In this document: positions 24,986 to 36,719 of the stretch, one piece after another | How positions within the stretch are numbered: the first letter of the stretch is position 1 | How the letters are laid out: every line of letters begins with the position of its first letter | Assembly (NCBI GenBank): GCA_030916965.1 | Contig: JAUPVQ010000034.1 | Location: 1 to 37,457 of the forward strand | DNA length: 37,457 nt | Source of the DNA: Patescibacteria group bacterium | GTDB lineage: Bacteria; Patescibacteriota; Minisyncoccia; Phycocordibacterales; UBA9973 | Direction of reading: 5' to 3' | Position numbers and translations under genes: made by a program | Notes under the pieces: model-generated | What the model saw: the letters and a program-made list of their open reading frames with translations, nothing else | What the model was told of the DNA's origin: nothing | Databases searched by the model: none

Positions 24986-25055
24986 CAGGTGTTGGACACC
25001 TGTGAGGTTATCCACAGGTATGGGGCTTGCATGTGAACGAGCGTTCACATATACT
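24986..25055 (+). promoter_or_regulatory. composite regulatory region: overlapping palindromes, DnaA box, SOS-type box inside a promoter
   Basis: CAGGTGT-TGG-ACACCTG; ACCTGTG-N8-CACAGGT containing TTATCCACA 25008-25016; ATGTGAAC-GAGC-GTTCACAT 25031-25050 between TTGCAT 25027-25032 and TATACT 25050-25055. Confidence 0.75.
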
Positions 25056-25061
25056 ATATAC

Positions 25062-25271
25062 ATGACACGGGAACAATATATCAAAATTTTACAAAGGGAA
25101 TTAGAGCGAATCAACCGCGAGATAGATATCAAGATAATCGCAGGCGAGGTTTATGCCAAGCAAGCCCGCGAGCACAAGATATTGCTTCGCAAGATTCACA
25201 ATCATTACCACAAAAGCTCATTCAAAGGTATAATAAATAAATTGTTTACTAGACCCAAGTTTCAATTCTAA
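25062..25271 (+). CDS. 69-aa charged helical protein, candidate SOS-regulated
   Basis: MTREQYIKILQRELERINREIDIKIIAGEVYAKQAREHKILLRKIHNHYHKS...; start 6 nt after TATACT. The ORF-track start at 25002 would include the promoter. Confidence 0.7.
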   Translation: MTREQYIKILQRELERINREIDIKIIAGEVYAKQAREHKILLRKIHNHYHKSSFKGIINKLFTRPKFQF

Positions 25272-25275
25272 AATG

Positions 25276-25409
25276 ATCCGGTAGTGAAAAATAGCATAGC
25301 CTTTGTGTTCAAACATAATCTAAAATTATATATGAAAAAAAACATTATATTTATTACAAGCATATTATCGAAATGGCATATACACAATGCTATTTTCTAC
25401 TAACCGGAT
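25276..25409. repeat. 134-bp element bounded by long imperfect inverted repeats
   Basis: ATCCGGTAGTGAAAAATAGCATagccttTGTGT vs reverse complement of ACACAATGCTATTTTCTACTAACCGGAT. Confidence 0.6.
25332..25403 (+). CDS. 23-aa upstream ORF MKKNIIFITSILSKWHIHNAIFY before lexA
   Basis: TAAAAT 25321-25326, ATG 25332, stop TAA 25401-25403, lexA ATG 25408. Confidence 0.35.
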   Translation: MKKNIIFITSILSKWHIHNAIFY

Positions 25410-25977
25410 GACACTCTCAGAATACAAAAATAAATTATCATCCTTTTATTCATCATCGAACCGTATGCCTACATACACCGAGATGATGAAGATTTTTGGC
25501 TTCAAGTCCAAGAATGCAGTTGCACGATTGGTAGAGAAGTTAGTAGATGCTGGTATTGTAGACAAGGATCCACTCGGACGTCTAGTCCCAACAGATTCTT
25601 TTTCAGATGTACCACTGTTAGGATTAGTCAAAGCCGGCTTTCCATCACCAAGCGAAGATGTATTGGAAACAACTATCAATCTCAATAATTTTTTAATACA
25701 GAAAAAAGAGAAGACATATATCTTGGAAGTTGATGGCGATTCAATGATAGATGCACATATTGCCGATGGTGACATGGTAGTAGCTGAGCGTACAGAATTT
25801 GCCCGCGATCACGATATTGTAATCGCAGAAGTAGATGGGGAATTTACAATGAAGTATTTTCGTAAATTGGGCGATAAAGTGTGGCTCGAGCCTGCCAACA
25901 AAGATTTCCATAATATTTACCCAGAGAACGATCTCAAAATTTGCGCAATAGTCAGGGGTGTAATTCGTAAATTTTAG
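25408..25977 (+). CDS. lexA: LexA repressor
   Basis: N-terminal winged-helix; VKAGFPSP cleavage site (Ala-Gly); VDGDSMIDAHIADGDMVV S24 catalytic Ser; catalytic Lys region EFTMKYFRK. Start revised from 25387 to 25408. Confidence 0.9.
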   Translation: MTLSEYKNKLSSFYSSSNRMPTYTEMMKIFGFKSKNAVARLVEKLVDAGIVDKDPLGRLVPTDSFSDVPLLGLVKAGFPSPSEDVLETTINLNNFLIQKKEKTYILEVDGDSMIDAHIADGDMVVAERTEFARDHDIVIAEVDGEFTMKYFRKLGDKVWLEPANKDFHNIYPENDLKICAIVRGVIRKF

Positions 25978-32992: not shown

Positions 32993-35671
32993 ATGGAATG
33001 GTACAACAAAACACACGAGAAAGTATTAGAAGAACTCAAGAGTAATATTACTGGCTTATCACAAAAGGAGGTAGTAGATCGTATTGTAGAATATGGGGAA
33101 AATAAATTACCTGAGGTAAAGCAACAAGGGTATTTCCAGATTTTCTTGAGCCAATTTAAAAGCCCGTTAATCTACATACTTCTTATATCTGTTGTAATAG
33201 TATTATTAATGGGAGATACAGAGAGTGGAATAGTGATTGGAGTAGTATTAATGCTCAATTCTGTAATAGGCACCTTTCAGGAAGGCAAAGCCCAAAATAC
33301 TCTAAATGCACTAAAGAAATTCGTTACCACAAAAGCAACAGCAAGAAGAGAAAATATTGAAATAATTATTAATGATTACGAACTTGCCCCAGGAGATATA
33401 GTTGTGTTAGTAGAAGGTGATAAAATACCAAGCGATATGAGACTTATATCTATCAACGAACTTTTGGTAGACGAGTCTGCTCTTACCGGAGAATCCGAGC
33501 CTGTACAAAAGTCTATTGAGGCTATGGATGGGGACAATCTATCTCCACAAGATCAAAAGAACATGGTATTTCGTGGTACATATGTTGTAGGTGGACAAGC
33601 TCTTGGAGTGGTTGTTGCTACTGGTAGTAATACATTGATAGGTAAAATATCATTTAAATTACAAAGTCTTGATACAGATGTACCTCTGAAAGCTCAAATC
33701 AAGTCTTTATCAAAAGTATTAATTATTATTGTTCTATTAGTTGTAGGCATATTATTTTTGATTGGAATTAATTCTGGTATAGCTACGGTAGATATGTTTA
33801 GTATTGCTGTAGCTGTAGCTGTGTCTGCTATTCCCGAGGGTCTGCCAGTAGTTGTGACTCTAATACTTGCTACAGGGGTTAATCGTATGACTAAGCGCAA
33901 TGCTCTGGTAAAGAACCTACAAGCAGTAGAGGCTCTGGGGCAAGCAGATGTAATCGCAGTCGACAAAACTGGAACAATAACTCTCAATCAAATGCAGGTT
34001 ATGCAAGTATATGTTGATAGTGGTCTGTACGATGTCTCGGGGCAAGGTTATGAGCCAAAGGGTACAATAGAGCAAGATGGTAGCATCGTAAATTTTACAG
34101 ACAAAGAAGACCTAATGCTTGTTGGCAAAATATCTGCACTTACTGCAATTGCTCATGTATCATACAATGAAGAAAATAAAATGTGGCAGAGAATAAGTGG
34201 CGATCCCACCGAGGTTGCGTTGCTCGTTTTTGCACAAAAATTAAGCATAAATAAAGAGATCGAGGAAAAGGACAATCCAAAAATCCAAGAAATTCCTTTT
34301 AGTTCAGCAAATCGTTACCATGCCACAATCAATAATTGCAAAAATAAAAATACACTTTTTATTGCAGGAGCACCAGAATTAATTTTTGATTCATCTGTAG
34401 ATATTTTTACAAATGATGGCAAAATTCCTTTTACAGATGAGAAGAAAAATGAAATTTTATCTAAAATGAAAGAGATGTCGGATAGTGGATTGAGGATTAT
34501 TGCACTTGCAACATCTGACCGCATGATAAATGATGTAAATTCAAAAAGTCTCCCAGAGCTTACATATGTCGGTATTGCTGGTATAGAGGATGCAATTAGA
34601 ACAGAGGTGTACGAATCTGTACAAAGAGCCCAAACAGCTGGAATAAAAGTCGTAATGATAACAGGAGATCATATTGATACAGCTTGCGCTATTGCTCGTA
34701 CAGTAGGAATCTACAAGGAGGGTGATAGTATCATAACAGATAAAGATTTTTTGGATTTAAATGCGAAACAATTAAGCGAGAAAATTGTCCAAACTAGTGT
34801 GTTTGCTCGTGTGACACCAGATCACAAGATGGCAATCGTAGATGCCTACAAGAGTGCAGGTCTTGTGATTGCAATGACCGGAGATGGTGTAAACGATGCA
34901 TTGTCACTGGCTAGTGCGGATCTTGGAGTATCTATGGGTAAGACTGGTACAGAGGTTGCAAAAGAGGCTTCGGATATAGTACTACTCGATGATAATTTTG
35001 GTAGTATTGTTTATGCTGTTGAAGAGGGTAGGAATATTTACCGGACAATAAAAAAAGTTTTAATGTATTTATTGTCTACAGGATTGGGAGAGATTTTTGC
35101 AATTGGAGGGTTCATGCTGCTTGGACTCGAGATGCCATTTACAGCTGCACAAATAATATGGCTCAACTTTGTAACGGATGGATTCCTAGTTGTGGCGCTC
35201 GCATTTGAGCCAAAAGACAAAACTCTAATTTCTCATAAGATGAATAAGAAGGACCAAAAATTGATCAATATAGATATGCTCGTGAGAATGTTCCTAATGG
35301 GAGTAGTGATGATGGCAGGGACTATAATTATCTTTATGTATTACAAAGGGCTTGGAACAAGCTTTATAAGATCTACTACGATTGCTCTGACACTCCTTGC
35401 TGTGTATCAATGGTTCAATGCATTTAATTGCCGATCCGATTCAAAATCGATTTTCAAGATGAATTTACTTTCAAACTTGTACTTAATGGTTGCCCTCGTT
35501 TGCGTTGTGATATTGCAATTTATTGCAGTTTATAATCCTTGGTTTAATAAATTCCTAGATACTACACCTATCAGTACCTATGAATGGCTTGTTGTTGTAA
35601 TTGTTGGACTATCAATCATTTTATTTGATGAAATTTACAAATTAATTAAATTTGGACTAAATAAATTTTGA
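32993..35671 (+). CDS. cation-translocating P-type ATPase, Ca2+-type
   Basis: DKTGTITLNQM; TGES; AIPEGLPVVVTLILATGVNRM; MTGDGVNDALSLASADLGVSMG. Confidence 0.94.
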   Translation: MEWYNKTHEKVLEELKSNITGLSQKEVVDRIVEYGENKLPEVKQQGYFQIFLSQFKSPLIYILLISVVIVLLMGDTESGIVIGVVLMLNSVIGTFQEGKAQNTLNALKKFVTTKATARRENIEIIINDYELAPGDIVVLVEGDKIPSDMRLISINELLVDESALTGESEPVQKSIEAMDGDNLSPQDQKNMVFRGTYVVGGQALGVVVATGSNTLIGKISFKLQSLDTDVPLKAQIKSLSKVLIIIVLLVVGILFLIGINSGIATVDMFSIAVAVAVSAIPEGLPVVVTLILATGVNRMTKRNALVKNLQAVEALGQADVIAVDKTGTITLNQMQVMQVYVDSGLYDVSGQGYEPKGTIEQDGSIVNFTDKEDLMLVGKISALTAIAHVSYNEENKMWQRISGDPTEVALLVFAQKLSINKEIEEKDNPKIQEIPFSSANRYHATINNCKNKNTLFIAGAPELIFDSSVDIFTNDGKIPFTDEKKNEILSKMKEMSDSGLRIIALATSDRMINDVNSKSLPELTYVGIAGIEDAIRTEVYESVQRAQTAGIKVVMITGDHIDTACAIARTVGIYKEGDSIITDKDFLDLNAKQLSEKIVQTSVFARVTPDHKMAIVDAYKSAGLVIAMTGDGVNDALSLASADLGVSMGKTGTEVAKEASDIVLLDDNFGSIVYAVEEGRNIYRTIKKVLMYLLSTGLGEIFAIGGFMLLGLEMPFTAAQIIWLNFVTDGFLVVALAFEPKDKTLISHKMNKKDQKLINIDMLVRMFLMGVVMMAGTIIIFMYYKGLGTSFIRSTTIALTLLAVYQWFNAFNCRSDSKSIFKMNLLSNLYLMVALVCVVILQFIAVYNPWFNKFLDTTPISTYEWLVVVIVGLSIILFDEIYKLIKFGLNKF

Positions 35672-35717
35672 TAAATTATAGATATCAGAATTATTAAAGA
35701 CCTGTTATAATACACAC

Positions 35718-36719
35718 ATGATAGTTACATTTGTCTCAATATTACTCTTGATTTCAGGGCTATTTTCAGCTTTGACTATTGCATATATGGGCTTTGATCT
35801 TGGTGTACTACACCGTCTCGCAAAGCAAAAGGACAAAAATGCAATTGCCATACTTGCTATCAGGTCAAATGGTATGAGGCTACTAATTACTTTGATTCTT
35901 GGTACAACACTTGCAAATGCCTTTGCGACGATATTGATAGGGGATCAGTTCTCAGGATTTGTGGCTGGAATAGTGAGTGCGTCACTTATATTCTTGCTTG
36001 CAGATGTACTACCGCAAGCATTTGGTAGTAGATATGCTCTAGCTTTTGGCGGTTTCTGCGCACCTCTTGTAAAGGTATTTTTATTTATCTTTTACCCCAT
36101 ATCTGCTCCAGTTGCATACTTACTAAAATATTTATTAGGAGAAGAAAAAGTGAATAAATTATCAAAGATTGATTTATTAACAATTCTAGAAGAGAGTGAC
36201 AAGAGTGGAGTTACAGATGTAGACACAGACGAGCGTCGTATTGCCCGTGGATCACTACAATTTTCTGATCGTCGTGTAAACAATGTTATGACACCAAATA
36301 CAGTAGTTAAAACAATTTCTCACGACGAGGTTATAGACCATGATAGGCTTATTGATCTGCGAAATACTGGATACTCTCGTATTCCTGTTTATGAAAATAA
36401 TCAACACAATTTTACAGGTATTTTGTATTTAAAAGATTTGATTGGAATTGACGTTCCTTGCAAGGTAAGTAGCATAATGGATAATACAATTCATTTCGTG
36501 CATTCAAATGACCCGTTGGACAAAGTGTTGAGTGAATTCATTTCAACCAAGATGCATTTGTTTGTAGTACTAGATGAATTTGGAGGTTTTGAGGGAGTGA
36601 TCACTGTAGAGGATATTTTAGAAGAAATTATTGGTCAGGAGATAATGGATGAAGATGATGTAATCCCAGACTTGCGCCAGTATGCCAAGGCTCGTCAGAA
36701 AAATAAAATGAAAAAATAA
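35718..36719 (+). CDS. CNNM/CorC (HlyC)-like CBS-pair membrane protein
   Basis: N-terminal CNNM TM domain; VMTPNTVVKTIS...YSRIPVYENNQHNFTGILYLKDLI; FVVLDEFGGFEGVITVEDILEEIIGQEIMDE. Confidence 0.9.
   Translation: MIVTFVSILLLISGLFSALTIAYMGFDLGVLHRLAKQKDKNAIAILAIRSNGMRLLITLILGTTLANAFATILIGDQFSGFVAGIVSASLIFLLADVLPQAFGSRYALAFGGFCAPLVKVFLFIFYPISAPVAYLLKYLLGEEKVNKLSKIDLLTILEESDKSGVTDVDTDERRIARGSLQFSDRRVNNVMTPNTVVKTISHDEVIDHDRLIDLRNTGYSRIPVYENNQHNFTGILYLKDLIGIDVPCKVSSIMDNTIHFVHSNDPLDKVLSEFISTKMHLFVVLDEFGGFEGVITVEDILEEIIGQEIMDEDDVIPDLRQYAKARQKNKMKK

Follow-up and report, generated by a model that had tools for sequence, protein, structure and literature searches.

A predicted LexA-autorepressed operon of a small conserved protein and lexA, with a phased candidate DnaA box, in a Nomurabacteria-like Patescibacterium

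The autoregulated lexA operons of Bacillus subtilis and Escherichia coli have a palindromic operator inside their own promoter, encode a repressor with self-cleavage residues and share their box with the genes for Pol IV and RecA. LexA also governs the small SOS-induced division inhibitors YneA, SulA, SidA and DidA, of which the gene for the first adjoins lexA. Leaderless mRNAs are a feature of the radiation/desiccation (RDR) regulon of Deinococcus, where the transcripts of damage genes start at or near the AUG. The SOS network of the Patescibacteria, the same bacterial group and the same regulator as treated here, was reportedly the subject of work by Sanchez-Osuna, Barbe and Erill (2017, Environ Microbiol 19:3465), which probably describes this LexA motif. 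Passages of PMC8565304 and PMC7739468 cite that 2017 paper. At uvrB of E. coli, DnaA and LexA both repress (PMC6015884), the SOS promoter region holding sites for the two proteins, with the LexA box between the -35 and -10 elements.

The locus described here lies in the window, meaning the whole stretch of 37,457 nucleotides that was analysed (Table 1). As in the B. subtilis and E. coli operons, a palindrome sits inside the promoter and self-cleavage residues are encoded downstream, and Pol IV and recA genes stand under the same box in relatives; it differs from both in having one strong site in its own genome, as in most of the genus, and in an operon whose first gene encodes an uncharacterised small protein. 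The earlier note had described a -35 element, a 17-bp palindromic spacer and a -10 element, and each was found in its place. It had also warned that the start of the open reading frame track, at 25002, would bury the operator within the coding sequence, which is borne out by the conserved protein beginning at the methionine at 25062. The operator overlaps the promoter and is kept across species, as is the mark of SOS (LexA-box) promoters, and comparative sequence makes it very probable that positions 25008-25977 constitute an operon of the small gene and lexA that is repressed by its own LexA.

Table 1. Features of the small gene-lexA locus, with positions in the window
Feature	Position	Strand	Remarks
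DnaA box (predicted), TTATCCACA	25008..25016	+	10 bp 5' of the -35
-35 element, TTGCAT	25027..25032	+	from sequence reading and aligned promoters
LexA operator (predicted), 20-bp palindrome ATGTGAAC-GAGC-GTTCACAT	25031..25050	none	conserved part 25033-25048; fills the spacer
Spacer, GTGAACGAGCGTTCACA	25033-25049		17 bp, between -35 and -10
-10 element, TATACT	25050..25055	+	from sequence reading and aligned promoters
Gene for the 69-aa small protein	25062..25271	+	ATG 6 nt after the -10, predicted leaderless start; no known family
Dispersed repeat, about 130 bp, terminal inverted repeats	25278..25407	none	inserted between small gene and lexA in this lineage
lexA	25408..25977	+	likely start 25408; longest ORF starts 25387

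lexA was found downstream of the promoter, where the earlier note had put it, and the alignment of relatives favours the later of its two possible starts; LexA homology begins near 25408, so the longest reading frame is probably too long. The protein matches the NCBIfam model TIGR00498 over its full length with 127.7 bits, above the curated cut-off of 110.95, and its match to the Pfam LexA_DNA_bind family is weak (17.3 bits, below the cut-off of that family). The Ala-Gly cleavage site and the Ser/Lys dyad are present, with KAG, GDSM and TMK motifs that align with those of solved LexA and UmuD structures. The C-terminal domain of the same protein also passes an NCBIfam model of the UmuD type, and in relatives the gene that comes after lexA is often one for a Y-family polymerase, an order reminiscent of umuDC. 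LexA-like S24 peptidase segments were seen within longer frames of about 500-680 aa as well (e.g., G077:C6:2741-3265 and G036:C9:58023-58619), which are possibly fusions.

The prediction of a leaderless promoter is supported at this locus and in one class of SOS promoters, and does not extend to most relatives that carry the small gene. At LexA-box promoters, 20 of the 30 open frames have an in-frame ATG or GTG at a distance of exactly 6 nt from the -10, compared with 0/29 at offset 0, 0/30 at offset 3 and 1/22 at offset 9 (p about 1e-13, a value that is indicative, the species being related). Transcription initiating some 7 nt past the -10 would put that very start codon at the 5' end of the RNA, and the counts thus support leaderless starts at such promoters. 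For the small gene, a leaderless start is predicted in a few species, that of the window included, whereas in most relatives its ATG stands about 30-90 nt downstream. In the annotation of these genomes, the fixed distance from -10 to start can be used as a rule to recognise leaderless SOS genes. Leaderless damage genes recall the Deinococcus RDR regulon, which differs in its repressor (DdrO/IrrE) and its motif.

Two features of the locus did not figure in the earlier note, namely a DnaA box upstream of the promoter and the repeat element ahead of lexA. The first, TTATCCACA, agrees perfectly with the DnaA consensus TTATNCACA. Of the 84 promoters of small-gene operons, 67 have an exact copy of TTATNCACA in the 45 bp ahead of the -35, in a single orientation throughout, where chance would give about 0.1; other LexA-box promoters have it in 6 of 40 cases (p about 6e-12 for the comparison, the relatedness of the species being ignored). 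Over all lexA and small-gene promoters, the distance to the -35 falls at 0-1 bp (9 promoters), 7-10 bp (59) or 19-20 bp (5), a spacing of about one helical turn, as would result if a protein made its contact from one side of the helix. A consensus box held at a conserved position and phase is what is looked for in the sequence of a DnaA-regulated promoter, and DnaA probably acts here. It is possible, though rather unlikely, that TTATCCACA instead binds some other activator, or that RNA polymerase itself reads it as a promoter-upstream element, as its presence upstream of several other promoters in these genomes would allow; the perfect consensus match, the uniform orientation, the phasing and the appearance of dnaN and mraZ among the other carriers all speak for DnaA, and positions at 0, 9 and 19 bp would not be expected of an element read by the polymerase. 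With DnaA as the bound protein, activation would be the favoured effect, because the box is both upstream and phased. The arrangement shares with E. coli uvrB a LexA box between -35 and -10 in company with DnaA binding sites, but uvrB has several of these and is repressed by DnaA, whereas here a single phased box stands 5' of the -35 of the lexA operon in many species.

The same TTATCCACA precedes promoters of mraZ, dnaN, a gene for a pilin-like protein, an ORF for a lysine-rich histone-like protein and others (L349-L388; genomes G000, G004, G017 and G041; gene names assigned by eye), a pattern consistent with a DnaA regulon in Nomurabacteria. By the same token, DnaA may supply a general input tied to growth and not be part of the damage circuit. 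Two of these loci (L355 and L356, at G000:C14:30715-31923 and 34131-36474) have near-identical promoters with the DnaA box 10 bp 5' of TTGACT, and their spacer holds a palindrome, CTTGC-N6/7-GCAAG, that is possibly the site of another repressor with the same layout.

The adjacency of the small gene to lexA in related genomes, which had been put forward as a check, was found in all 39 of the 100 relatives that have a homolog of the 69-aa protein, and these loci share the promoter-operator arrangement of the window. The gap between the two genes is usually 1-35 nt in relatives, and in some cases the small gene lies downstream of lexA (L112, L201). The family gave no significant and consistent match in Pfam, NCBIfam, PHROGs, PADLOC or the PDB. 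Its predicted structure is a confident hairpin of two helices, residues 3-27 and 32-50, with pLDDT of about 87-98 by block, followed by an amphipathic C-terminal tail that is modelled with uncertainty; the protein is strongly positively charged with a basic stretch, and no transmembrane segment is evident in it. A Foldseek search with the model returned generic helical hairpins only, the best PDB match being SSV1 D-63 at an E-value of 0.77. Residues N18, I21, D22, I25, G28, Y31 and H38 are invariant in several families of the order, and their clustering around the turn of the hairpin suggests a binding surface there.

Since the ORF is short and ends 1-35 nt before lexA in most relatives, it could serve mainly as a leader peptide, setting how lexA is translated or how stable the transcript is, its product having no function of its own. 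This is improbable in view of the residues kept invariant across families, the codon changes between the two closest species (16 synonymous vs 8 non-synonymous), the confident model and the loci in which the gene is 3' of lexA. For the protein as a functional product, the leading guess, a tentative one, is that it modulates replication or division as part of a checkpoint. No sequence relation was found to YneA, SulA, SidA or DidA, from which it also differs in its predicted helical hairpin, basic stretch and amphipathic C-terminal tail.

The repeat that separates the small gene from lexA has further copies in the genome of the window and in G014, the copies listed being those in the window, at G000:C14:19217-19353 and on four contigs of G014 (C13, C41, C43 and C61). 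All five distinct insertions seen end exactly at the ATG of an ORF, these being lexA and, by eye, recR-, bL9-, DciA- and glutamate-dehydrogenase-like genes, and where the left end is visible it carries a duplicate of the ATG and the next bases. Such a preference of a repeat element for start codons is unusual. Its strong inverted repeats might lower read-through into lexA in this lineage.

The core of the operator, GAAC-N4-GTTC, resembles LexA boxes of the Gram-positive type. The palindrome could not be accepted as significant on its own, as the core is expected 0.44 times per window by chance and was found once, and 38 of 100 shuffles of the window contain it at least once; the significance of the operator comes instead from its conservation across relatives. 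On that conservation the earlier note had staked its reading in advance, and it proved strong: the exact GTGAACN4GTTCAC is present in 43 of 51 lexA-positive genomes vs 3 of 49 others among 100 relatives (p about 1.7e-16 by Fisher's test, which overstates independence because the sampled species are related). Among the three lexA-negative genomes with the box, one has it at recA with the full promoter and two have it without promoter elements. The boxes in G009, G075 and G014:C48 were judged to be chance or non-promoter occurrences. The layout TTG-GTGAACN4GTTCAC-TATAMT is common to 41 aligned promoters. In a species-level genome collection, the matches listed place the site before small gene-lexA operons or lexA in Nomura-, Zambryski-, Taylor- and Kaiserbacteria, and also before lexA in Nitrospirota, Omnitrophota and WOR-3. 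It is very improbable that the palindrome is the operator of some other repressor, such as one of the TetR family, with lexA adjacent by accident: in Firmicutes, among the matches listed, GTGAACN4GTTCAC with a -10 does stand before TetR-family genes (L193, L250, L288 and L294), but in relatives the box tracks lexA as counted above, stands immediately ahead of lexA at loci that lack the small gene and also precedes genes for Pol IV and RecA, and these loci hold no TetR gene. The occurrences in Firmicutes do mean that motif scans alone would misassign such sites to LexA.

As for other SOS genes, the operator recurs before some of them in relatives, and no second site was found in the genome of the window. 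In relatives, it stands before operons of lexA and Pol IV, Pol IV genes on their own, a gene for a BRO-N protein, one for a cysteine-rich protein (HNH nuclease-like by eye, with no Pfam match) and, in three cases, recA. A regular membership of recA was rejected, since almost none of 30 recA loci inspected has the full box, with G007 the exception. The genus of the window has mostly one operator site per genome, and in the whole 730-kb genome of the window TGAACN4GTTCA occurs exactly at this promoter only. Its degenerate form is not enriched genome-wide (258 sites at up to 2 mismatches vs a control of 419), the longer ATGTGAACN4GTTCACATATA finds no second locus in the 730-kb assembly even with 3 mismatches, and neither does a search of that genome with a profile of the whole promoter. 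A wider regulon in the same genome was considered and set aside, the one-mismatch sites (L002-L014) being mostly intragenic and none standing before a DNA-repair gene with a promoter. The Pol IV gene of this genome has no operator upstream, and a -10 lies exactly 6 nt before its ATG. LexA here appears to control little besides its own operon.

A search for recA in the assembly of the window, which comprises 42 contigs at 95.7% completeness, did not find the gene. As recA is near-universal in relatives (91 of 100), its absence is treated as a gap in the assembly, and loss of RecA from the organism was not concluded from contigs of that number and completeness. In two relatives (G055:C4:47518-49401 and G076:C40:26167-28053), the recA frames exceed 700 aa and the RecA domain is split by a long insert, probably an intein.

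From the comparisons we infer a circuit in which LexA would occupy the spacer palindrome and block RNA polymerase, and DNA damage would free the promoter through RecA-stimulated self-cleavage of LexA. The transcript would then begin at or next to the ATG of the small gene and continue into lexA, while DnaA, bound on one helix face just 5' of the -35, would contact RNA polymerase, making the output also track the replication state. The fullest form of the proposal is doubtful as a whole. In it, the 69-aa protein would be the first member to be described of a family of SOS effectors that, after damage, restrain division or the initiation of replication in Patescibacteria, LexA would control essentially one operon and DnaA would set the output of that operon through the phased box; if true, replication state and DNA damage would be sensed at one promoter. 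The LexA box itself may already be known from the 2017 study of SOS control in Patescibacteria. Unless that paper covers them too, the family of the small gene, the rule on -10-to-start spacing and the phased DnaA box are probably unreported. The Patescibacteria, whose genomes are very small, have hardly been approached by genetics, and their response to DNA damage is poorly understood. An SOS circuit of about one operon, led by a conserved and uncharacterised small protein, would narrow that response to a single gene to study, and, given the phased DnaA box, whether replication control is directly tied to the damage response can be tested on a single short promoter.
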